Shown here: positions 3,854-62,151 of the stretch, piece by piece | How positions within the stretch are numbered: position 1 is the first letter of the stretch | Layout: each line of letters opens with the position of its first letter | Source: Botryotinia globosa | Lineage: Eukaryota > Ascomycota > Leotiomycetes > Helotiales > Sclerotiniaceae | Length of the DNA: 64,000 bases | Assembly (NCBI GenBank): GCA_014898425.1 | Contig: RCSZ01000013.1 | Span: forward strand, 62,001-126,000 | Reading direction: 5' to 3' | The notes under the pieces: generated by a model | What the model was told of the DNA's origin: nothing | Seen by the model: only the letters and a program-made list of their open reading frames with translations | Databases searched by the model: none | Program-made: the position numbers and the translations under genes

Positions 3854-5932
3854 CTACCAGATTACGACGTCTCTGGTCTCGGGTGGCCATACAGCATCAA
3901 ACTTCTGGAAGTATGCAACACGTTTGAATGAGCCACACCCGAAATCCATCAAAATCAATCCCAGGCAGATTCTTCGCTCCATTCCATCTCTCGCCTGCCT
4001 GAACATTACCAAAGTGCGTTCTTTCGTCGAACTCCAAGATTTTATGGCGGTCTTGCGACGCTCATATCCTAATAGAAGGGCCCAGTATTTTTTCCTTGCA
4101 TCCAATTCTGCATCAGCGTAAAACGTCCCTAGTGCCAGCCCGTTGTACATTGCGACGTTCTCTCGAAATGGACTCACGAAGCAAGAAATATCGATTTTAA
4201 GAAGATGGCCTTTGACAGTGATTGATCCATTTTTCACTGGCCCATAGCGATTGGAAACGAAGTCTATGTGGGCGCCTACCAACATTGCATCCCACAAAAT
4301 ATCTGTATCCTCGGAATCTGGACAAGAGTAATAACCGAGTGGTGTATCTTCTGTTAACAGTTTGATGCTCTTGAACGCCACGGGAGCATAACTGAAGAGG
4401 GTATGACACGATGCCCATGACCATGAAGGGGCGCTATATTCAGAGTCAGCCGGCAACGTGGAGCGACGAACGCATCCAGAACTAGGTCGATGAGGCAGCC
4501 AGCACAAGGCTTGCGGGAAATCGCGCGCCCAAAGGCCTGCAAGGTACGTATCTCCTATGATTGATCCAAGCTGATACGCCAAACCAGCAACTGCCGGAAG
4601 CTTGTCTTTTCTATGCAATATTTGCTTTCCTGAATACACTTCTAGCAGTTGGTACCAGGTGTCTACTTCTCGGGGAGAATAGAATTGGTTTTGTCCTTTT
4701 TTCAGAGCTAGGTAAGGAAAGGTAGCAAGCTTACTACCAACAAAGATATCAAGATCTCCTGCATCTTTCGTTGGGTCTTCGTCAGATCTTTTGTTCTTGC
4801 GACATCGGAAGTGCATGCCAACAGGTGAGTATATCAACGTCCGAGCCGCCAAAATACTTTCTTGGAGTACCCAGGCCCTGCCAAAAAGTGGACATGGTAG
4901 AGAAATACCCATTTCACCAGTTTCGTGTCCGGTTTGAATACACGGTCGAATCCACAAAGATCTCACTATACTCTTTCTCTCTGAGCCAAGAACCTGACCA
5001 AGTTTAACACTCAATCTTTCGGGTAAGAAACCGCTATCTCCGTCAAGCGCTGCTGCAGCTGCGATGTTGAATTCGGCGTTATTGTAGACGAAGCACATTT
5101 TGGACGACTCTTCAATCCAATCTTCATCGGAGTCCTGAATAATGCAAAGCGAATCGATCCACAAATATCGCATTTGTAGTTCTCTAGTTACTCGTACAGC
5201 GTCTGCATATGTCTTGTTCAAACTCTTAACCGGGATTGCGTATTTCCTTTCATTCAAAGTGTCTTTCTTAGTTGACAAGTGCGCCGATTTACCCCAGCAG
5301 TGGCTCAAAGTGACGTACTGCCAATCCATCCCAGTTTTAACGCCAGAAGGCGAAGATCCATAAGTTTCTACAAGATGTGGTACACTGAAATCACCGCTTT
5401 GATCGGGATACCCAACGTCAATCAGCCTCGATGGGAGGCTCTTCGAATTGAATCGTACGCGACATCCATCATGATTTTCCAAACATTCTCTGAGCCATTC
5501 TCTTGCCATGTTGACGGTGTTTGATGCCAATGGATCTGGTGCTTGGTGATATTTCAAAGGCCAGATCTTGTGCTTATCCCCTTGCACGTAGAGTTGCAAG
5601 CAGAGCCCTCCATACATCACCATTCCATTTCGCCCACGAAGAAGCTTGAAGCTGAAATACAAATCATGGGAATTCTCTAGTGAGAACTTGCGCCAATGCT
5701 CCAGGTTTAAGTAATGATCGCCGTTCAGAAATTTCAACAACATGTGGCATAACCGGCAGCTCTTATCAGCGGAAACCTGGAGGCTGGCTAGATTTTTATG
5801 ATGATGCAAATGGGGTTCCCATCCATTCCATGAGATAGGCCAGCTTGACTGGTTCTGAGGCTTTGAAGCTTGGATTATCGTCTTGGAAGTGATCCAAGTG
5901 CGAAATCTTTTACACTTTGTGCATAATGGCAT
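3854..5932 (-). CDS. HET-domain (heterokaryon incompatibility-like) protein
   Basis: Single uninterrupted exon of 692 aa starting at the ATG at 5932. Two Cys pairs near the N terminus (CTKC at 4-7, CRLC at 59-62) form a putative small metal-binding lead. The HET domain starts near residue 206: YVTLSHCWG, then YADAVRVTRELQMRYLWIDSLCIIQD and the FNIAAAAA block, covering roughly residues 206-355. The remainder (to 692) has no recognised domain, which is usual for orphan HET proteins without NACHT or WD repeats. Family members trigger cell death or vegetative incompatibility when an allorecognition partner is engaged. A specific partner is not visible here. The gene lies convergent to the peroxiredoxin with about 210 bp between stop codons. 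Confidence 0.9.
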   Translation of the reverse strand: MPLCTKCKRFRTWITSKTIIQASKPQNQSSWPISWNGWEPHLHHHKNLASLQVSADKSCRLCHMLLKFLNGDHYLNLEHWRKFSLENSHDLYFSFKLLRGRNGMVMYGGLCLQLYVQGDKHKIWPLKYHQAPDPLASNTVNMAREWLRECLENHDGCRVRFNSKSLPSRLIDVGYPDQSGDFSVPHLVETYGSSPSGVKTGMDWQYVTLSHCWGKSAHLSTKKDTLNERKYAIPVKSLNKTYADAVRVTRELQMRYLWIDSLCIIQDSDEDWIEESSKMCFVYNNAEFNIAAAAALDGDSGFLPERLSVKLGQVLGSERKSIVRSLWIRPCIQTGHETGEMGISLPCPLFGRAWVLQESILAARTLIYSPVGMHFRCRKNKRSDEDPTKDAGDLDIFVGSKLATFPYLALKKGQNQFYSPREVDTWYQLLEVYSGKQILHRKDKLPAVAGLAYQLGSIIGDTYLAGLWARDFPQALCWLPHRPSSGCVRRSTLPADSEYSAPSWSWASCHTLFSYAPVAFKSIKLLTEDTPLGYYSCPDSEDTDILWDAMLVGAHIDFVSNRYGPVKNGSITVKGHLLKIDISCFVSPFRENVAMYNGLALGTFYADAELDARKKYWALLLGYERRKTAIKSWSSTKERTLVMFRQARDGMERRICLGLILMDFGCGSFKRVAYFQKFDAVWPPETRDVVIW

Positions 5933-7888
5933 GATGATTATGTGTAAAATATGACTTTATGAGAACAAATGCCATGACTTGGTGTGAATATCTGTATGTA
6001 ATGATCAAGATAACTCGAGAAACAACAGAGCTTTATGGGTTGCCGTGAAAAGGATTTCTCGGGTGTTACGATGCCAAATGATGTGCCAGAGGTAGCACGA
6101 TGTCTGTGCGATGGCAGATCGTGCAACGAAGAGTCTAAAAGATATAAGACGAATTATTAGCTTCAAAGTCTTTTCATATTGAGGATTTAATTTGATTGAT
6201 AAATCTGTGAACGGTTTGAAAAAAAAGGAATCATGAAATTGAAATGTCGGGAAACCAGTCACTGAAAGGCTGATCAGGCTCTTTTTTTCCGGGGACGCTT
6301 TGAGTAATTCCGGATAGCGAATCATTCAATCGGAATTTTACATCGGGGGATACAAGAGCCTTCCGCTGGGAAAGCGAGGTGGGTAAAGGAGAAAAAAGCA
6401 ACCAAATGCTGATCTTTGCATGGTTTTGTAACATAAATTCAGTCTTCCGATTCCTTGGTCAAGCAACAGGGCTGATGAATCTCGATCTCAGGAGATTTCT
6501 GGATGCCGGTAAGTTCTCTGATGTTCTATCAATGATAGAACTTCCTGTCGGCCAAACACTGCTTAATCTACCTCTTCTTGTTTCAAATCCCATGTCCTAT
6601 CTATTTGCGAGAATCTCATATCCGTGTCGGAAGTGCAATAGAAGTGATTTAACTGTTTCATTCCAGCCTGTCCGCACCTGAGACGTATCATGTAGCCGAG
6701 CGCTTTTCGAGAACAAGGCAGCGGCTTCCGGTGCGATTTGCTAATGTGAATGTAGGCGCACGCGTAGAAGCCCCTCGGGGCTGCATGATCGAAAATTGGG
6801 ATTTATGCATTTTCTCTACGTTCGACTGAACTACTCGTCAGGCCTTCGGTGAGCATACACAATAGTTGTCTCGGATCTTGTATTTCTCTTGAGGCCTTGG
6901 TATCTTTTCCCTTCGGTGATATTTGACTCTCTGTCCTTTTGCCAACTCCGGATCGAAATCCACTAAGCCCGCTAAAGAAGACTTTTTTAGTATTCAGATG
7001 TTCTATCGATATCTTCTCAGCCTCGAATGAGAAATCGGGGACGAATTTCAAACCCTCGTGACGTTATTAGAAATGCCGATGGGGGACAGTAGTCTGGATT
7101 AGTTCACTTAGCAACCGTTGAACTAGAAGGCTAGCGCCAGGTCGGTAGTATTAGCGTAAAGCTTGGCATCGGACAGGTAGTGGGGCTGGGGTTGAAGACA
7201 TGGAGAAGGTGAAATGTGGAATAAAGTGCATAAGTGACTGTTGAAGGAGCCTAGGAATCGGAGAAGCTTCCCGATGAACTATGCCATCGCATCTTATAGA
7301 GAGATAATTCCACGGACATGAGCTTCAAAGAGCACCCTGCCTTAGAATATAACTCGATCTTGCAAATTACCAACTCTAAATTGCGTTAGTCAACTTCCAA
7401 GGACTATCAGCGAAACATAGTGCAGTGTTTAGTACAGTTAGGAGGAAAATGGATTTCATTACAATAGACATGGTTGCCATTGGACAAGCCATACCTCTTA
7501 GGGCTCTGGAATCGATTTAATTACATATCATATGCCTATTCAAGCGAGCACCTACTTCTACTACCTTTACTTCATAATCACCATTTCCATCTTGTCAACT
7601 ACTTGGTGGATGTTAGTGTGATGTTAGCTTTATGATATGACGTTTCCGGCTCCAAAGCGAAGATAAGAACTTCTATAAGTTCTCAGTAGATTCAATTCTG
7701 TTTCCAGAAGCTACGTTTCATGTTTCTTCCATTAGAAAAGACAGATGGAATAGCAATTGCTTTAAAAGACTCATTAATCGAAGAAGCATACGTAGCCCAT
7801 AAAAGCGGTCGTTCTCAATATACTCCTAAGTAGCTCCCTTTTGTTTTCGTTCTCGAGAACAGATCGTCCATCACAGTATAATGATGGA
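5933..7888. other. Intergenic region, nothing recognised
   Basis: About 2 kb of ordinary composition between the HET gene and a small acidic-protein gene. Short open stretches (for example 6379-6681 +) show no domain, signal peptide or codon pattern that would support a gene. Part of it is probably the HET promoter. Confidence 0.4.
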
Positions 7889-10544: not shown

Positions 10545-12152
10545 ATGGCTTCAATATTACCAGGACTGCGAAAGGCAACTCCCAGATTATCTAGGGATTT
10601 CTTTATATGTTATCAATGTTTAAAACAACCTCGTCCTACATTGCGGCAAACAAAGTTCCCCGCCAAATCCATATCTTCCCGCTCAATACGATTCAATAGT
10701 AATATAGCTACAATCACTGAATCTGCCAATGGAGCCTCTCCATTGAGTTCGCTGGCTGAATCATTGAGCAAATCAAGTCAAGCAATAAATAAAGCATCTT
10801 CACGAAGCAGATTCCCGGAAACAAGTTCTAAATCAGTGGGTTATTGGCTGTTAGGAAGTGCTGCAAGTGTATTTGGAATCGTTGTATTTGGAGGTCTTAC
10901 ACGCTTGACAGAGTCTGGGTAAGTGTGATGTGATCAAGATTCTTTCGTTTGCCTTATTCATCCTTCTGCTTTCCAATGCAGCCATCTTGAAGCGCCTTGC
11001 TGACTCCCCTCAAGTCTTAGTATTACAGAGTGGAAACCCGTAACTGGATCTCTTCCACCTCTCTCTGCCTCAGACTGGGAGAGTGAATTCGACTTATATC
11101 GAGCCTCACCCGAATTCAAGCTTCTCAATCCACATATGACTATGTCAGAATTCAAAAAGATATACTTTATGGAATGGTTTCATCGACTATGGGGTCGGTT
11201 TATTGGACTCTCTTTTGTTATCCCGGCGGTCTACTTCGTCGCCCGTCGCAAAGTCTCAAAGCCTATGGCTCTTCGCTTATTTGGAATATCGGGACTCATT
11301 GGCTTTCAGGGAGCTATTGGTTGGTGGATGGTTAAGTCGGGATTGAAAGACGATCTTTTCGCCCCCGGCTCTCATCCCCGCGTTTCTCAATACAGGCTTA
11401 CCACACATCTTGGCACTGCTTTTATCTGTTACACTGCAATGCTCTGGAACGGTCTCTCAATTCTTCGCGACCGCAAACTTTTATTTAACTCTACACCCGC
11501 TCAGGCGCATGCTCATCTCCTTCGTTTATCATCGTCCTCACTATCAGTATTCCGTAAATCCGTTGCTGGTCTCGCTCTTCTTGTCTTCACAACAGCTATG
11601 TCCGGTGGATTAGTCGCGGGTCTTGATGCCGGTCTTATTTATAATGAATTCCCTCGAATGGGCAAGGGATTCGCGCCACCAAAGTCCGAACTCTTCTCCG
11701 AGTTTTATTCCAGACAACCGGACCGTAGTGATTTGTGGTGGCGTAATATGCTCGAGAATCCATCAACAGTGCAATTGGATCACCGTATACTAGCCTCTAC
11801 TTCATTTACTGCTATTCTCGCTCTGTGGGCATATTCACGCTTCAACCCTAGAGTTAAAGCTGCTCTCCCAAAAAGTGGAGCGAAAGGAATGCTTGGTGTA
11901 GTCCATCTTTTGATGTTGCAAGTTACTTTGGGTATTAGCACTCTGATATACTTGGTACCGACTCCACTTGCTTCTGCCCATCAAGCTGGAAGTCTTGCAT
12001 TATTGACTGGGGTCGTCGTTTTGGGTAGTCGAGTCTGGATCCCCAAAAGAACCATGGCTATTTTGAGAAGAAAGTTAGCATCGCAGAGTCCACAAGCCGC
12101 TAACGTGAAGTTCGCAAGCCGGATGTCACCGCTTGCAGCGAAAACTTCTTGA
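10545..12152 (+). CDS. COX15: Heme A synthase, mitochondrial inner membrane (Cox15)
   Basis: Two exons, 10545-10918 and 11015-12152, give 503 aa. The 96-nt intron has a GTAAGT donor, a TGCTGAC branch site and a CAAG acceptor. The first ~90 residues are Arg/Ser-rich and act as a mitochondrial presequence. The invariant FGGLTRLTESG / LSITEWKPVTG block spans the splice junction. Four conserved His heme ligands are visible: WFHRLWGR (about 181), TTHLGT (about 256), QLDHRIL (about 381) and SAHQAG (about 447), within eight hydrophobic segments arranged as an internal duplication. The enzyme oxidises the C8 methyl of heme O to a formyl group, making heme A for cytochrome c oxidase. Length matches yeast and human Cox15. 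It is a conserved housekeeping gene that marks the boundary of the RiPP locus. Confidence 0.96.
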
Positions 12153-12622: not shown

Positions 12623-13160
12623 TCACTTGTTACTATCTGTATATGTGTAATAATACCCATCATCATCAACCTCATTGCGTTTTGAAGCTTGCGCTGTTGA
12701 GTCTCCGTTGTTAAAGAATCCTCTCTTTTCCTTTGAAGCATCTGAAAGGTCGTTGTTGTTAAAGAATCCCCTCTTCTCCTTTGAAGCATCTGAAGCACCT
12801 GCATTGTTGAAAAATCCTCGTTTCACATCTGACCCTGCATCATTGTTGTTAAAGAATCCTCTCTTTTCCTTCGAGGAACCTGAAACATCGTTATTGTTGA
12901 AGAATCCCCTCTTCTCCTTTGAAGCACCTAATGCATCTGCATTGTTGAAAAATCCTCGCTTCACCTCTGATCCGACATCATTGTTATTGAAGAAACCCCG
13001 AGGAACACTAGCTTCACGTGTGGCTGTCATATCGATGTCAGTGGAATACAAATATATGATGAGCGGTACGCATACCAAGTGAGCTGGGTTCAATGATCGG
13101 TGCTGCCATAGCGGCGATGGCCAGCGTGGCTGATGCAAGACAGAAGGCTTGGAAATGCAT
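12623..13160 (-). CDS. Secreted Kex2-processed repeat precursor of a dikaritin-type RiPP (UstA-like), seven GFFNN units
   Basis: Two exons, 13160-13076 and 13023-12623, are separated by a 52-nt intron (GTATGC donor, CACTGAC branch site, GACAG acceptor). The product is 161 aa. The ATG at 13160 is chosen because it opens a textbook signal peptide (MHFQAFCLASATLAIAAMAA, residues 1-20). From residue 38 to 144 there are seven tandem units of 14-16 aa, each beginning GFFNN and ending in Lys-Arg. The cores read GFFNNND (four times), GFFNNAD, GFFNNAG and GFFNNGD, followed by variable spacers such as VGSEV or SGSSKE. The C-terminal tail (145-161) contains DGYYYTYTD. Signal peptide, identical cores and dibasic cleavage sites are the hallmarks of precursors of ustiloxin-type cyclic peptides and other Kex2-processed fungal peptides. 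The first unit follows Pro-Arg rather than Lys-Arg. Two UstYa-type genes lie upstream on the same strand. It does not resemble an alpha-factor pheromone. The product is unknown, and it could also be an unmodified secreted peptide. Confidence 0.9.
12677..12997 (-). repeat. Tandem coding repeat, seven units, with a 138-nt higher-order period
   Basis: The seven peptide units (14, 16, 16, 14, 16, 16, 15 aa) are arranged as two copies of a three-unit block: 12860-12997 and 12722-12859, each 46 codons. Within each block the order is a short unit ending EVKR or DVKR, a unit with NNA ending SKEKR, and a unit with NNND ending SKEKR. A final shorter unit (12677-12721) ends ASKR. This suggests that the three-unit block was duplicated as a whole. 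The GFFNN codons are strongly conserved and the spacers vary. Confidence 0.9.
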
Positions 13161-14288
13161 GATGGTGGCGAATTTGCGGTGTGAGGTCGTTGTGTATGGA
13201 CAGGTGCTTTTTCAAAAGGCTTCTTATTCTGATATTTTCTTGACCTGGCTGACCTTTTCGAGAGTGTTGCTGGCTGACAGTTAAGACGGGTTTATATAGC
13301 AAATGCTTGGATATATGATCCTTCCACAGTCCATCCAGTCCGGTGATAGTTCATTCCCGGTCTCGTATTCTATCCTCACGGTGTCGGAACTGGTATCAAG
13401 AGTCTCATCGGGTTGCTTGACTGCTTGAGTGAGGGGTACATTTATCACCTCGCACAATCTTCAGAGAGGTATGAAGGATATCGCAAGGTCCGATTCTCTC
13501 ATCGTCCAATGAACTGTCCTCTCGCGTGTTGTTCGCACTTTCACTTTTCTCTTGTTAACAGAGCAGTCAACTTTCGTTGCCGTTTCTCCGGTATGGTAAT
13601 GCTCAAAGTCATTCATCACATCTTGCATCTGTATTAATGAGGAAATCGGCCAGAGAAATGGTGGGATCAGGTTACTACCACTTGAATCGCCGAGTCTAGA
13701 CAAGCTGGTAATCACACGATGGTCTGGCCGAGTAAGTGATTGCGATTTTTAGAACAATGTCATGGAGCCACTTTAGCAGCGGTGAGAAAACGGCCAGACA
13801 TATTGTGGTACGCGAGACGTAGTGTAAATGCATGTTAGATGTGTATGATGTTGAACTTAGTATTGCACAACAAGTGCGATCATGATACGTTAGATCTGCT
13901 CTACAGCATCGCTTGGTTCTAAGTGAGCTTTCGGATCGTTCTCGGGGAGGCCTTTCTCGTTTCAATCTCTTTTGAACGTTTGCGGAGAGTATGTGTATCG
14001 CTTTTAGTCTCCCTATGCTCCGTGGGCAAGGGAGTGATTGCAACACATGCTGTTTTTACTTGGCATTGTATTCATAAATCGAAAATGCTTATTAAACCAC
14101 TATCCACGCGTTGCCAAAAAAAAAATGCCAAGATACTTCTCAATGATGCCATAAGAATTATTAGAGCGGATGGTTAATCATCTTCAAAGGTTTAGGTTTC
14201 TGATTAAATTCCGCAATCAAAGTATCTTGCACTCAAAGGTCATGAAAGTGCGAATAACGAGAATTGATAGAATTAGATTATTAACCAT
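13161..14288. other. Intergenic region between precursor and first UstYa gene
   Basis: About 1.1 kb, ordinary composition, no supported gene. It should contain the precursor promoter and the 3' UTR of the UstYa-like gene. Open stretches here show no domain. Confidence 0.5.
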
Positions 14289-15377
14289 CTAACTAGTTGC
14301 CTCAAAAGACTCAACGCTCAACTTCCACAGCTCTTCAGGGTCTTTGCATTGCCTTTCCATCATCCCATCAACATTTTCCTTTCCTTTTGAATCAGCTTTT
14401 GGCGGCTCGAGTGTTCCGTCAGCCGTACATAGTACTGTCTAGAATTTTGGTGTGAAGTCAGTGCGAAGTTCATTAGTTTTTTATAGAAAGACATTGAGTC
14501 CCATGGCATCCTGCTTTGTTCTATTCGCTTGCAATTATAATCCCACATGAACATCCGAGCAAGTTATCCTCTAATCAAAAGTTATGACCTCCAGATTGTT
14601 TCCAAAGCTCCCAACGAAGTCAAGAAAAATGTGAATGGAAACTGTACATACCTGTCTCAAATAATCAAAACAATGCAACCAATGTAGTGGATCCCCATGT
14701 TCCATGTGACCAAAATCATGACCATGGCCATGATTTCCACCTGCTCTCTTGTTCTTCTGTTCCCTCCTCATCTTGCTCTCCGTCTCTTCACCATCTTCCA
14801 TCTCATCACCATCTTCCATCTCATCATCTTCTTCCATATCATCATCATCTTCCATCTTTCCCATCTTCAACTTTTCAACTTCCATCTTCAACTCCTCCAT
14901 CTCCCTGAACAATTCCTGAACTCCTCCCCTCATAATTCCCAAGCAGTGGAGAGAGTGGAACATAGTTATCCCATATTTATGTTTCTTCCCCTTTTGCACC
15001 TCTCCTTTCTTTCCTTCCGCATTTTCTTTCCCATTTGACTTTGTGTCTTCGTCATAAACCCTCAAAAATCCTCCATGTTGTGGAAGTAATTGATCCCAAA
15101 GATGATCGTATTCATGAGAAAGATTTTCATATGTCGAATGTTCGGAGAATAGAACAGTTTTAGAGAAAGGTGATAGGGGGTTGAGGGATTCGGGAATGGA
15201 GGGTGTGGATGAAGATGATGGGGAGGTATGTGAATCAGATGAAGAGGGGTGAGAGACAAAGGATACAGAGGATGTTTGAAGAAAATATATAAGAGTTGTG
15301 AGGATGATTATTAGGAAGAGGAATGAGATGAGGAGGGATGAAGATTGTTTCGTAGAGGTGGAGCGGGACGTCAACAT
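14289..15377 (-). CDS. UstYa-like oxidase (DUF3328), RiPP cyclisation/oxidation enzyme 1
   Basis: Exon 1 is 15377-14652 (242 codons, ending FDYLRQ before a GTATGT donor). Exon 2 is 14438-14289, after a TTCTAG acceptor, starting TVLCTADGTLEPP and ending EATS. The total is 291 aa with a 213-nt intron. A single membrane anchor lies at about residues 15-33 (LLISFLFLIIILTTLIYFL). Both DUF3328 signature motifs are present: HSLHC at 141-145 and HWLHC at 232-236. The DG...RQCKD block near the C terminus is also present. Members of this family catalyse oxidative macrocyclisation or other oxidations of Kex2-released core peptides. Unusual features are a long Met/Asp/Glu-rich insert (about 174-200, repeats of MEDGDE type) and a His-rich patch (HGHGHDFGHMEH, about 216-227) between the two motifs. 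Those motifs are about 90 residues apart, against about 40 in its neighbour. It lies upstream of the precursor on the same strand. Confidence 0.88.
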
Positions 15378-15981
15378 TTTCTTCGACCTCTTTTGTCTTT
15401 TTTCTGTCTTATTTCATGGTGTTCGGATTTCTCTCTCGAATTTGCGATGCAGCGTAAAACTTCAATAATGATCGAAATCCAGCATTCTATTATTTGTTGA
15501 TCATGTATATCTGTGAAGAAATATGAGGGTCCGCTATCAGTACATGTCACCTTCCTATAAAACTCTAGTTCCCGAATGCCAAGCGATGAAAGTCTTGGCA
15601 TCTGCCCTTCGGGTAAATCGCTGGACTGCCTTTTTCGGGTGTGTGAGATATGCGAGTGATCCCTACTCGGTATTTGCCCGTAGGACGGTAGTTAGCTGTA
15701 CATGTCAGACACTGTAGGATCCTGGAGATGTTGTGGAGAGAACGATATGTACCCCACTATTTGCAGAGCTGGTTTCGGAATTGAGATGATTAGCGATGGA
15801 GGCGATTAAGGCGATGGATTGTTGAGGCGGAGAAAGGTTTGCTCATGAATATCATAAATTCAGATGGAATGTAAATTGTGGGTAGGTATTCATGGTGCAA
15901 GTAAAAATAAACTAAAAGATTCCTCGAACATATGGACTCCAACCTGTAGCAATGTATAGCCCATTGTCGTCTCCCAAACCC
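15378..15981. other. Intergenic region between the two UstYa-like genes
   Basis: About 600 bp with no supported gene. It includes the promoter of the 14289-15377 gene and the 3' UTR of the 15982-16959 gene. Confidence 0.5.
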
Positions 15982-16959
15982 TTACGCAATTCCCGAACTA
16001 TTCACCGGACTCCTATGCTCTCCCATCCACTTCAAAACATGTTTCCAATCTCTACACATATGAGTGATACCCCACCCATCAACTGTCAATGGAGGTTTCC
16101 CATCCGGCATCTTCATTGCCCATTCGATAGTCATATCTGCAGAACACATCATTGCTTGTCGTAAATAATCGAAGCAGTGGGATGTATGTTCTTTTTCCGA
16201 TTCTTGAGCCGCTGAGTCTGAGAGATTTTCATCGCCGTGGATGTGCGGGCGAACTCCCATGAGTACCGAGTTGTAGGATTCGCGGATCATGCCCTGTGGG
16301 TGTTAGATGATGATATAGGTGGACTTTGGAGCAAAGAGGGAAAAAGATATTACCAGACAATGGAGTTGGTGGAATACGGAAACTGAATATCGATCTGGTC
16401 CATTTACTGATGGCAATCCAGGGCGAAGACCATATTTTTCAGGCTCCTCGACAAGAATGAAACCTCGTCCAGCTGGTGATGTTTGATTAGCTTTTGTTGG
16501 AGATATCTTGACCGGTAAGCTTCTGGGGGTGTAATTTACCTGGCATTAAATTATCCCATGCTGAATCTGTTTCTGGACTAGAAGAAACAGCATATCTTTC
16601 GTCTTCTTCAAACATAACTGGATGTGATGGAACTGCTCAATATGAGTACGTGATATCTAAAGTGACCATAATCTATCTTTCCACGAGGATTTTTTTATCC
16701 CGAACCTACAATCTGGAGGAAATGTCTGTGGTACACTCCTATTAGAAATGTATAGAAACGTGGCATAGATAACCAGAATTATAGATAATCCGCTGAGAAG
16801 CCCCACAGCTACTCCATATAGAAACTTTCGCCGCAAAGCAGCCGCATCGCCATCTCGTAGGTATAGTCCTTCATCATTCTCTATTTTCGGATTCAAAAGT
16901 GAATGGTATGGTAGAGAAGTTCTGCTATTGCTAGACTCGTATGAGCGAACTTCAGGCAT
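15982..16959 (-). CDS. UstYa-like oxidase (DUF3328), RiPP cyclisation/oxidation enzyme 2
   Basis: Four exons: 16959-16710, 16632-16540, 16472-16354 and 16293-15982, giving 257 aa. Introns are 77, 67 and 60 nt with GTAGGT, GTAAAT and GTAATA donors. All junctions keep the frame. A basic/polar cytosolic N terminus (1-45) precedes one transmembrane segment (about 47-70, FLYGVAVGLLSGLSIILVIY). Then come SPETDSAWDNLMPAGRGF, the first copper/iron-binding-type motif FHQLHCLGMIR (HQLHC 149-153), the second HTSHCFDYLRQ (190-194), MCSADMTIEWA and the C-terminal DGWGITHMCRDW block. This is a textbook DUF3328 protein of normal length. Known family members work in pairs with their precursor in cyclopeptide pathways, which matches the presence of two here. 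Confidence 0.93.
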
Positions 16960-17601: not shown

Positions 17602-19284
17602 ATGAGATTAGCAATGATTCCTCAATTGAGTCGTAGAAACTCAATCCACACTTCTTTGCTTCCCAACACCAAATCAATCCTCTGTTCGTTGTACCCGAGG
17701 TTCAATTGTCCTGGTGATACCAACAACAACACATTGTCGAAATGCCGTCTGGACCTAGCATTCTTCACGTCACTTGCAACGGATATTTCCTCAAATTCAA
17801 TTCTACATAGCGGATCACCACCTCAGAGAAGGTTCCATCCATCCGCCCTTTTGAGAAGATGGGAACTTGTTAGGAAAAAACGATGTTTTCAATGCCTTCT
17901 TCCGAATTGATTTTAACAAATTCTTTGGAGCCAATAAATCCATACGAGGCTTTGTATCCCCCATCTCTTACTGAAAGTGAACCAAGCTCCCCGAATTCGA
18001 AGTTGGATTCAGACGTGGACTCATCATCTCACATTGACATATGCAGACGTCGAGTGGATTGTCCAGAGCCGAAGGTCAAGACGATAGATTCTGAGCCAGA
18101 GACTGTGTGCCCTAAATCTGATCCAACTTTAAGGCTAGATAGGAGTGAGAAGGACACCTCCGTGCCGAATCAAGGAAAAGGTTTGATTGACAACAAGAGT
18201 TATAAAGCTCAGTTCTGCAAGCCACCACATCAAAGGACACTGAAGTCGAAATCCAAACTGGATCAAATCTCTGCATTGGCCGGCACGGAAGCTACATCTA
18301 AGGATCAAGAAAATACCTTTATATCAAGGCAAAATTCAGTCGTAGTTCTATGGGGTGTCGATAATAAAAGATATTCTTCTTCTTATGGCGACGTGGTGAC
18401 TTCTTTGAAGAAGTTCGCTGGGCATTTTGGAGAGCTTATTAATATATCGGCTTTTGGTAATCATCTCACAGTCTCTGAAATTGGGCCAAAATTGCTAGAG
18501 GCTGGCGTGCACATTGAAGGTGTGGGTACAGTACCCCAAGAAGCAGATGCAGCTCTACGACGCGCGTGTGGAAGATGATGCAGTTAGAGAAGGAATCTAG
18601 TTCTTTTCTTTGGTTGATCTTGGTCTCGGATGATGCAGGGTTTCGGTATATGTTGAGGTCACGCAAGAGAAGTGGATTCGGAGTTGTGATTGTGAACGAA
18701 TTTTTCACTAAATTGTCGTTGGAAGGTGATTTGCGCATGCCTTGGCCACAACTCAAAGCTGGGAACTATAGTTTGGACGGCTTAGCCGACCATATCGTTG
18801 GAATATCAACCATGGGTCGAAGATGGACAAGGGAGAATATGAATACAACTGATTCCGGAGATGAAGTTCCCATTGACAAAGTCATTCTAAAGCTTAAATT
18901 CAACTGAATGCAAAAAACACCATGAAACGGGAATTGTTGTTAAGAAAAATGCAAAAACGGTCGATATTGGAACAGCCACTGAAGAATACGAGTGAGAAAG
19001 ATTTGCAATCCTTGGAGATTCTAGAAAAAGGACTACGGAAATTGGAAGATCCATCTAAACATAAAAGCATGTGGGGAATCGATGGAAGTATCTTGAGATT
19101 GGAAACTGAATTGAATGCAAGGATCGAAGCGAAGAAGACAAATCGTTCAACTCACGAAGTGACGCCTTGGGGGGATATGTCTGATGAAGATTTGCTGAAA
19201 AATCTAAGTCGTACAGATTTCGTGGAGGGATTGATGAGATTGGCGAAAAGCTCGAGTTCACCAAAGATAGACTCAAGTTCGTAG
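17602..19284 (+). pseudogene. NYN-domain (PIN-like RNase) protein locus with apparent frameshifts
   Basis: Four open stretches on one strand appear to belong together. 17602-17910 encodes a Ser/Arg-rich, presequence-like N terminus. 17883-18578 encodes a polar linker and then VVVLWGVDNKRYSSSYGD ... ISAFGNHLTV ... GVGTVPQEADAALRRA. 18580-18907 continues with LILVSDDAGFRYMLRSRKRSGFGVVIV. 18922-19284 is a charged tail. The order LWxxDNK, (A)D...ALRRA, VSDDxxF, GFxVV is the NYN ribonuclease-like fold, with Asp residues expected to bind metal. The NYN core is split by a frame change near 18560-18580 that no plausible intron explains. It is a decaying gene or contains assembly indels. An origin as a mitochondrial RNA-processing protein is only a guess. 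The 17883 ATG could be a shorter start. Confidence 0.5.
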
Positions 19285-22308: not shown

Positions 22309-24199
22309 TCACTCGAAAACTCCATTCTGCATATCATCCATCAATTCCCCTGCCATTACACCATGAACATAGCACGGCCCGATTAACTCGTAAGTTCCAT
22401 CTTGACTCTGTCGCAAAACCACTAGTCCGTCCATGCCATACAGTATACATGTCGCATCTCCACATTGGGTATCATTTGGCACATGGCCAATGTATCCGGA
22501 CGCCGTCACGAGGAGCCTTCGATCTATGACAGTATTTCAAAGTGACCCTTTAATGTCCTAAATTCTTCGTTGGGATTATCTACATAAGCGTCAATATTTG
22601 GCTCACAGACATCCATTGCAATAGTTACCCAGTCACTGAAGGATTTTCCGCCAAATTTTAGCATTGCATTCTTGGCGTGAAAAGACTTGACTTCGTCAAA
22701 TTGATCCCATTTCCAGATATTTTTGAAAGGCCATTCTTCCCTTGATATCACCACTGACGTGAACATGAAATACACGGCTTCGCTCACAGAAGTCGCTTTG
22801 GTATGAACGTCTGTTCGAGACGATACTAGCGTATTCCAAATAGCATGTAAGAGGTCATTCTTACTGGGGTAACGCGAGTTATCTGTAGTTGATTGCTGTA
22901 GAATTTTATGGCTGGCCAGAGGAGGAAGAGTCGAGTTGTCTAGAGGATGCGATTTAGCCCCAAAGATAGCTGAGCCCAGGCCGTCAACAACGTCTAATAT
23001 TATTCCTCTAGCCGAGAGAACATTAGCTTCTACCTTTACTCCAGAAGGCTGCATTGTTCCGGATGCCATGAATACATGATATGTATCTAGATCTTCCCAT
23101 GGAAAATTCATCAATTCATACATATCTGAATTTGAAGTGAAGTCAGGAGCCCAGGACGGCAGACCATTCATTCGACAATACTCCGATAACATGCAGATCA
23201 CATTCAGGCATCTTCGTTTTTCTATAAGACCTTGAACTACGTCTTGGAGAACCGACTGAATGGGGTTAGTATAATCAGGGCTCACGATATCGCGATCTTC
23301 TGCAAGGCCTAATAGATACGGTCTCGGGGATCGGAACAAAGAGAATATCTATCCCAAATCAATAGCTGAGCCAGTTGAACTTTGAGATCAAATTCTCTTC
23401 TTTTTCTAATGAGGGAGATCACACCAATTCTTTCCATGGCGGTAAGAGTTCTGAGGGTTAACGTGCCAGGTGGAACTATCCAATTTGTTCCAAGAAAATA
23501 AGAGTGACACCTTATTTTTCTAATCAAGTCCCATATGACAGAAATAGTGCCATGATGTAGAGAGATATACTTCGCAAGTACAATCTCTTGCAAAACCCAA
23601 GACCTCTCCCACCATTCTTTTGAGTAGAACTCATTCATCGCCCGCGAAGAATTGTCATCCGACCATAGCGCCCATTTTGAGTCGAGCAATATGATATCAC
23701 TATTGTATCTATTCCGATCTAATCTGCTTAGGATGCCACGCAATTTGAGTGCATCGCTTTCAATCCTGGGTGCCCCAATCCACACAATGACTGTTTCAGC
23801 AGAGGAATAAATCATACCCATACGCTTGACTTCAATCGCTTGCTCTATTAAATCATTTTGGTCGATACGAATTGCATCCACCCACAGGAAAGCTGGTTGT
23901 TGTGATTCAGCCTTCATGTTGCTTGTCAACTGCCTCAAGCATTCTGCAAGATTGGCATGAACCATCACTTCGACATCATTCACAACAATTGGTGATAATC
24001 GAGCTGAAGTTCCCCAGGCATATGAGAGGGCATTGTATCTTCTCTCCTGCTGGAATAGAATTCTTGACTGTAGTACTGAGTCCGATTGTTGGTCTTGTGA
24101 ATCTGATTGTGTTTGGAAAAGTGTGCATGATGCTAAATCTGATAAATGATGTCGTGGATATAGTCTTAGTAAACCAATTTCATCCAGATCTCGATTCAA
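22309..24199 (-). pseudogene. HET-domain protein pseudogene with two frameshifts and no start codon
   Basis: The HET domain is clear: RRYNALSYAWG, LWVDAIRIDQND, EVKRMGMIYSSAETVIVWIG and WWERSWVLQEIVLA, in 24199-23309. The conserved SDPRDRIY...LLGLAED junction is broken by an indel near 23300-23320, where the frame changes. A second break occurs at about 22511-22525, before the C-terminal GDATCILYGMDGLVVLRQ block that ends at 22309. The frame has a TAA directly upstream and no ATG before the HET domain. All blocks are in the right order, so the gene was intact recently. Sequencing indels remain possible, but three separate defects favour a pseudogene. It lies between the two TIR-element insertions. 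Confidence 0.78.
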
Positions 24200-24657
24200 A
24201 GGTCGATACAGCGATTAAGGCACTCCCCTTGATCGATTATGCTTTTGTGATGTGCTGAATGATTTTGTTGAATCGGGTCGAATAGTGGTTCTATAGCGAG
24301 ATAATAAAATATGTATGGATTGTAATAAAAGTACTAATAATATTGGATTTCGCAATGTATTAAATAACGATCGAAGGTTGCGCAGAATGATGTTCTTCTT
24401 TCGAAAGAATGAAGAGAATAATAAATATAGTGAAGTAGGTGCTAGGGTTTTGATATCATGTGCTGCGTACAACAGTTCTTGAGGATGCGGACGGGTAACA
24501 TTGTTCTTTCGGAAGAAGGAAAGAAATGAAGAATACGATGACGGAGATATTGGCATATTTGGATTTCGTGATATTTTTAAATGATTCTTGAGTGACGTTT
24601 ATCTTCCCAAGTATGAGAGAATGTACTGCATCCAAGATATTGCTGGCAGAGATTATA
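24200..24657. other. Upstream region of HET pseudogene
   Basis: About 460 bp of AT-leaning sequence up to the second TIR element. It contains a loose repeated TTCTTTCGAAAGAA-like motif at 24392-24407 and a related one near 24506. No gene is supported. Confidence 0.4.
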
Positions 24658-61976: not shown

Positions 61977-62151
61977 TTGCGTTAATCAAGTCGACACTGG
62001 TGAAATATTTATACTCGAGACTTTCTGCAAGATCTTCAATACCAGCTTCGTTTAAACTTGGGAGTTTAGTCCTAGGGGGTCTGGTGTCGGTGGTCAAGCT
62101 CGAATTGACACCACCAATGACCAAAGTGCATAACAGGATCCCAAGAATCAT
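61977..62151 (-). pseudogene. Amidase-signature family pseudogene, exon 1
   Basis: The ATG at 62151 opens a signal peptide (MILGILLCTLVIGGVNSS), then TKLPSLNEAGIEDLAESLE and YFTSVDLINA, the usual N-terminal helix before the amidase core. The exon ends in phase 1 at 61977 before a GTAATC donor. The matching acceptor (CATAG) is at 45460-45458, beyond the retrotransposon nest. With the element and one target duplication taken out, the intron would be 64 nt and the reading frame continues. Confidence 0.82.

Follow-up and report, generated by a model that had tools for sequence, protein, structure and literature searches.

The locus described here raises the question of whether a secreted repeat protein and two oxidases encoded beside it form a minimal pathway for a dikaritin-type peptide and, if so, on which residues the oxidases would act. 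It lies in a stretch of 64,000 nucleotides of the Botryotinia globosa genome (45.7 Mb in 27 contigs), which covers positions 62,001 to 126,000 of contig RCSZ01000013.1 (C13:62001-126000) and is called the window hereafter. Dikaritins are ribosomally synthesized and post-translationally modified peptides (RiPPs) that derive from Kex2-processed repeat proteins (KEPs) and are cyclized by homologs of UstYa; five of them had been reported by 2022, and at least 838 precursor types were cited in the same review (PMC10512285). The locus is probably a minimal dikaritin-type peptide cluster, as the initial annotation had proposed. At the level of the genes, the set fits the definition printed in the review (PMC10512285), and a real precursor is supported by its conservation in relatives and by purifying selection on its repeated pentapeptide, GFFNN.

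The repeat precursor and its two UstYa neighbours

Gene models built from the sequence place three intact spliced genes on the minus strand between window positions 12623 and 16959 (Table 1): the precursor and two proteins of the UstYa (DUF3328) family, named U1 and U2. Every intron in the three genes has GT-AG ends and the reading frames are open throughout. The initial annotation was right in placing three neighbouring genes on one strand at this position.

The precursor begins with a signal-peptide-like segment and a short lead whose last residues are VPR. Seven units, each led by GFFNN, come next, and after a final Lys-Arg the protein closes with the tail NEVDDDGYYYTYTDSNK. The N-terminus is hydrophobic, with a maximum mean Kyte-Doolittle value of 2.08 in the 19-residue windows starting at residues 4-6, and small residues precede the likely cut; the signal peptide that had been predicted is, on hydropathy, supported. 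The initial annotation had also described seven GFFNN units lying between Lys-Arg sites. The number of units stands and six of them follow Lys-Arg, whereas the first is preceded by Pro-Arg. KEPs have been surveyed twice (Umemura 2020, Le Marquer 2019), and this organization fits the survey definition (PMC7329392 Methods), which comprises an N-terminal signal peptide and at least three repeats of at least 8 amino acids between dibasic sites, given that the precursor carries seven units of 14-16 amino acids. The comparison with the definition was made by counting units.

The precursor is present in a single copy in the 45.7-Mb genome, in which a protein search finds its own two exons only. The codon pattern for KR-GFFNN has six matches in the genome, all inside the precursor gene, while the reversed pattern has none; a chance repeat was rejected for this reason. 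A pheromone precursor was likewise rejected, given that the alpha-pheromones of Leotiomycetes are reported to have two conserved Cys (PMC6339444) and the repeats of the precursor contain no Cys. The match of the precursor to DUF3976 falls below threshold (E 0.31, 12 bits, cut-off 25). Type #24 (G-5/P-1) in the classification of Umemura includes Botrytis and lists DUF3976, which makes this match a lead only. The repeats of type #24, as described, contain Tyr, unlike the GFFNN repeats.

The two proteins encoded next to the precursor match the UstYa family of Pfam (PF11807) with 105.5 bits for U1 and 113.6 bits for U2, both well above the cut-off of 25. Each has one hydrophobic stretch near the N-terminus and the two HxxHC motifs that have been suggested as a marker (PMC12048977): HSLHC (141) and HWLHC (232) in U1, separated by an acidic low-complexity insert, and HQLHC (149) and HTSHC (190) in U2. 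The claim that two DUF3328 proteins with both motifs are encoded here is therefore upheld, and the UstYa gene expected beside a dikaritin precursor is present twice. The His and Cys positions of both motifs are invariant or at least 90% conserved in four alignments (14, 39, 27, and 48 sequences). For the first two of these, 13 of the 17 matches of U1 and 38 of the 68 matches of U2 were chosen (14 and 39 sequences with those of the window). When U1 is aligned with U2, 26% of 229 positions are identical. Four adjacent pairs of DUF3328 genes have been reported in Sclerotinia sclerotiorum (PMC6941272).

The acidic insert of U1 is encoded by an 18-bp tandem repeat at window positions 14764-14868. 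Its length is variable, and the window copy has the longest one among the 14 aligned sequences.

In a survey of 7,878 Kex2-repeat precursors, DUF3328 genes were found within 15 genes of 1,758 (22%), with a peak at the very next gene (PMC7329392). A chance adjacency of precursor and oxidases is unlikely in this genome, given that 6-kb stretches at all 37 UstYa matches cover 0.5% of it.

Table 1. Coordinates of the three genes, of the parts of the precursor and of the flanking COX15 gene, in window positions
Feature	Position	Strand	Structure or basis
Precursor gene, Kex2-processed repeat protein, 161 amino acids	12623..13160	-	Exons 13160-13076 and 13023-12623; 52-bp GT..AG intron
Exon 1 of the precursor: signal-peptide-like segment MHFQAFCLASATLAIAAMAA, then PIIEPSSL	13076..13160	-	Sequence
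Seven GFFNN-led units	12677..12997	-	Lengths 14, 16, 16, 14, 16, 16, 15 amino acids, including the dibasic site
Tail at the C-terminus (NEVDDDGYYYTYTDSNK) with the stop codon; follows the last Lys-Arg	12623..12676	-	Conservation among precursors
U1, UstYa/DUF3328 protein, 291 amino acids	14289..15377	-	Exons 15377-14652 and 14438-14289
U2, UstYa/DUF3328 protein, 257 amino acids	15982..16959	-	Exons 16959-16710, 16632-16540, 16472-16354, and 16293-15982
COX15, flanking gene outside the system (long last frame)	11004..12152	+	PF02628, 321 bits

Selection and conservation in the precursor

The codons of the seven GFFNN copies differ at silent sites only. Summed over the 21 pairs, 46 synonymous and no nonsynonymous differences are found (pS 0.94, pN 0). 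When the four units of 16 amino acids are compared, GFFNN shows 10 synonymous and no nonsynonymous differences, and the other 11 codons, including the dibasic site, show 22 and 30, respectively (pS 0.49, pN 0.20). In the two units of 14 amino acids, the codons outside GFFNN give three synonymous and two nonsynonymous differences. These counts are small and purely descriptive. Silent divergence among the copies, with no change in the pentapeptide itself, supports purifying selection on GFFNN; the spacers vary more than the pentapeptide, yet they are not free of constraint either. Across nine precursors with 48 units, the Gly is found in 45 units and the Asn at position 4 in 47. Positions 2, 3, and 5 (F, F, and N) are the same in all 48 units, but they were fixed by the search pattern. 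When the precursors are split without the pattern, the segments that do not start with the motif are HEAKEER in P0003, the lead-in GEEKEAR in P0008, and the tails only.

These observations bear on whether the locus could be a decaying or accidental one, with genes that are remnants and make nothing. The AT-rich tandem repeats at approximately 45-62 kb of the window argue weakly for decay, but the frames are all open, the introns clean and the motifs intact, GFFNN appears to be kept by purifying selection, and relatives occur in other Botrytis; decay is, for these reasons, very improbable.

The best matches of the precursor, U1, and U2 are Botrytis proteins. A database search with the precursor (E up to 1) gave eight relatives, two of them without a species name and six from Botrytis hyacinthi, B. 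deweyae, B. byssoidea, B. sinoallii, B. paeoniae, and Botryotinia calthae. The window precursor has seven repeats, as has P0008, which ends before the tail; the other seven relatives, all complete at the C-terminus, have three to six. The search with U1 gave 17 relatives at E 0.001, of which eight belong to Botrytis, Botryotinia, Sclerotinia, or Monilinia, four to Rutstroemia, Clarireedia, Neopestalotiopsis, and Pestalotiopsis, and five are unnamed. U2 has 68, spread over many named ascomycete genera. The adjacency of the genes was read from locus tags in two species, the listing for the others consisting of cluster representatives only. In B. sinoallii, the precursor and U1 have consecutive tags (EAF02_001157 and EAF02_001158), and in Sclerotinia nivalis the same is seen for U2 and U1 (OCU04_007991 and OCU04_007992). 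Consecutive tags lend support to a cooperation of the genes, without proving it.

Conservation is not confined to the repeats. The tail segment DDGYYYTYTDS is unchanged in all eight aligned precursors that reach the C-terminus, that of the window included, and the codon pattern for GYYYTYT occurs once in the genome. In the precursor of B. paeoniae (P0006), SKS replaces the Lys-Arg ahead of the tail and the tail is retained. From this single sequence, it would seem that the tail can have a role without being released. The tail may be a recognition element, or else a second core. The tyrosines of the tail recall the core of asperipin-2a, FYYTGY (PMC6514808), in a likeness that is short and may be due to chance.

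This makes it necessary to consider that the UstYa pair oxidizes the single-copy DDGYYYTYTDS and not GFFNN, with the repeats having another role. The invariance of the tail in the eight precursors and its resemblance to FYYTGY would fit such a substrate, and Tyr is the residue that is cross-linked in ustiloxin, asperipin-2a, and phomopsin, as reported. Nonetheless, GFFNN is also strongly constrained and is the part that has been multiplied, separate release of the tail is apparently not needed in B. paeoniae, and the resemblance to asperipin-2a has the limits given above. It is, therefore, quite improbable that the tail is the substrate in place of GFFNN.

Predicted pathway and comparison with known peptides

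For the dikaritin-type reading, we infer that the genes cooperate in the following way. The signal peptide would take the precursor into the secretory pathway, where Kex2 would cut after the Lys-Arg sites, and perhaps after the first Pro-Arg, to give about seven peptides of 12-14 residues starting with GFFNN. A proprotein-convertase domain is encoded elsewhere in the genome (C3:1231346-1231656). The two membrane-anchored UstYa proteins would then oxidize the conserved GFFNN part through their paired HxxHC motifs, probably at Phe and/or Asn and in the form of a cross-link, a dehydrogenation, or a hydroxylation. The variable spacer would be trimmed by general peptidases, and the small modified peptide would be exported. 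The computed [M+H]+ values of the linear peptides are 598.262 for GFFNN, 1298.565 for GFFNNNDVGSEV, 1256.518 for GFFNNNDAGSDV, and 1440.675 for GFFNNADALGASKE, with a change of -2.016 for each loss of 2 H.

The reactions reported for UstYa/DUF3328 proteins are diverse and include ether bond formation, hydroxylation, chlorination, and a part in transacylation (PMC12048977), as well as the desaturation of residues (PMC10512285); copper-dependent macrocyclization is, by its title, the subject of a 2025 paper. Closure of a ring at Phe has a precedent in victorin, from Cochliobolus victoriae, which has a multi-core precursor that is probably cut by Kex2 and a ring formed via a phenylalanine side chain (PMC9233826). 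In victorin, by contrast, the ring joins leucine, there is extensive further modification, including chlorination, and the cluster encodes peptidases (PMC9233826). A UstYa pair that works without tyrosinase on a core in which only Phe and Asn are likely to be reactive would lead to an undescribed type of Phe/Asn cross-linked or dehydrogenated peptide, guided by the invariant Tyr-rich tail as recognition element, or with the tail itself as a second, single-copy core; we put this forward tentatively, as a proposal that is rather doubtful as a whole.

Several observations weigh against a dikaritin-type pathway. All seven units of the window lack Tyr and Trp, and P0001 is a relative with a single Tyr in one spacer. 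Tyr is reported in 65.6% of the repeat sequences found near DUF3328 genes, and ustiloxin, asperipin-2a, and phomopsin are all closed at this residue (PMC7329392). No tyrosinase is found near the locus, given that among the 13 matches to PF00264 in the genome the sole one on this contig, at C13:670605, is approximately 595 kb away, and no S41 peptidase match was found near the locus either. Pfam was run on 10 of the 30 stop-to-stop frames of at least 130 amino acids in the window, and these ten contain no match to a methyltransferase, tyrosinase, S41 peptidase, or P450. The 500-bp regions upstream of the precursor, U1, and U2 have no 8-mer in common. DUF3328 proteins are also used by polyketide and nonribosomal-peptide pathways (PMC12048977). 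Finally, relatives of U1 and U2 occur in Sclerotinia and Monilinia, and of U1 in B. cinerea, and the precursor search returned none named from those taxa. This distribution argues against a strict coupling of precursor and UstYa genes, in a manner that is weakened by the fact that two of the eight precursors carry no species name and because small intron-bearing precursor genes would easily escape annotation.

Part of this evidence would suit an ordinary Kex2-processed repeat protein, from which GFFNN peptides are secreted in linear, unmodified form (as a signal, hormone-like, or surface-active peptide) beside UstYa proteins that have another substrate. Most precursors of the survey, 6,120 of 7,878, are reported without a DUF3328 gene nearby (PMC7329392), and the absence of Tyr and Trp from the repeats, the U1 and U2 relatives in taxa that yield no precursor, and the lack of a common promoter word point the same way. 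On the other hand, the genes are directly adjacent here and have consecutive tags in B. sinoallii, the DUF3328 genes of the survey concentrate at the position next to the repeat precursors (PMC7329392), and the two Cys of the Leotiomycetes alpha-pheromones (PMC6339444) are missing from the window repeats. Linear peptides are, for these reasons, an unlikely outcome, and a dikaritin-type cluster is still preferred.

A full ustiloxin-type cluster was rejected, since neither a tyrosinase nor an S41 match lies near the locus; the ustiloxin/phomopsin subtype combines a nearby tyrosinase with Tyr in the repeated core, and both are missing here. The precursors of ustiloxin B and phomopsin resemble that of the window in their signal peptide and in their repeats cut at Lys-Arg, and they come with two (ustiloxin) and five (phomopsin) DUF3328 proteins. 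They are described as differing in having a tyrosinase, a methyltransferase, and others, and in having Tyr-based cores. The locus also resembles the asperipin-2a cluster of Aspergillus flavus, which is likewise very small, combines UstYa chemistry with a Kex2-repeat precursor and, among the four genes described, has no tyrosinase (PMC6514808). Its core is, however, the Tyr-rich FYYTGY, and it has one UstYa, a transporter, and a reductase (PMC6514808), whereas the present locus has two UstYa genes and no other gene recognized.

A literature search on RiPP, DUF3328, UstYa, KEP, and KEX2 in Botrytis found no description of the locus, and the GFFNN string is absent from the relevant papers searched, among them the main texts of both KEP surveys (Umemura 2020, Le Marquer 2019); the supplementary tables of the surveys may include it.

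Surroundings and other UstYa loci of the genome

On one side, the locus is bounded by COX15, as had been annotated (Table 1). On the other side, the NYN label given to the next locus was not confirmed: the 234-amino-acid frame found there (window 17874-18578, plus strand) has no Pfam match at E 0.001. The ten frames run on Pfam gave matches to peroxiredoxin, HET (two frames), COX15, aldo-keto reductase, and amidase, and four gave none. The frames with the HET (heterokaryon incompatibility) domain flank the locus on both sides, at window positions 3854-5956 and 23309-24214, both on the minus strand. Many AT-rich tandem repeats lie at approximately 45-62 kb of the window, and some of the surroundings may therefore be rich in repeats.

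The 37 matches to PF11807 in the genome fall in 22 loci, which were compared as the window locus and 21 others with approximately 1 to 4.5 kb of flank. A scan for at least three units sharing a four-residue word in one open frame, which may overlook precursors that are interrupted, diverged, or farther away, found repeat open reading frames with dibasic sites at four of the 22: GFFNN, GMEDATPY (contig C14), EPELSYV (C4), and DGTLIAEGW (C1). The repeats at the last three contain Tyr or Trp, and GFFNN alone has neither.

At approximately 964.5 kb of C14 (L022:3971-4381, plus strand), the precursor has a signal-peptide-like start and ten MEDATPY units with KR or KEKR between them. It sits between two UstYa genes, with a tyrosinase match (C14:952010-952474) approximately 12 kb away. 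From its gene content, it is a fuller dikaritin-like locus than that of the window. On C4, at approximately 438-439 kb (L026:7300-8300, plus strand), NSKREPELSYV repeats lie approximately 3 kb from a UstYa match. They are broken up by short stretches that resemble one another and have GT..AG-like ends, a pattern that would fit the duplication of exons and introns together as units. On C1, at approximately 1.443 Mb (L019:3945-4260, minus strand), a small three-repeat precursor with the tryptophan core DG[KT]LIAEGW lies between UstYa matches; its start resembles a signal peptide, and the gene probably contains an intron.

A Kex2-repeat precursor with DUF3328 neighbours is a widespread and known arrangement, to which the GFFNN locus adds a member, and the features most worth pursuing, neither of which the initial annotation had noted, are its Tyr-free core and its invariant Tyr-rich tail. 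With three genes, and a precursor that is found in several Botrytis species, the locus offers a small and tractable system for testing how UstYa enzymes act on a core without Tyr and whether they are guided by a conserved tail. It would also connect a plant-pathogenic genus with a defined secreted peptide; short of a product, it stands as a prediction that is well supported but of a common kind.

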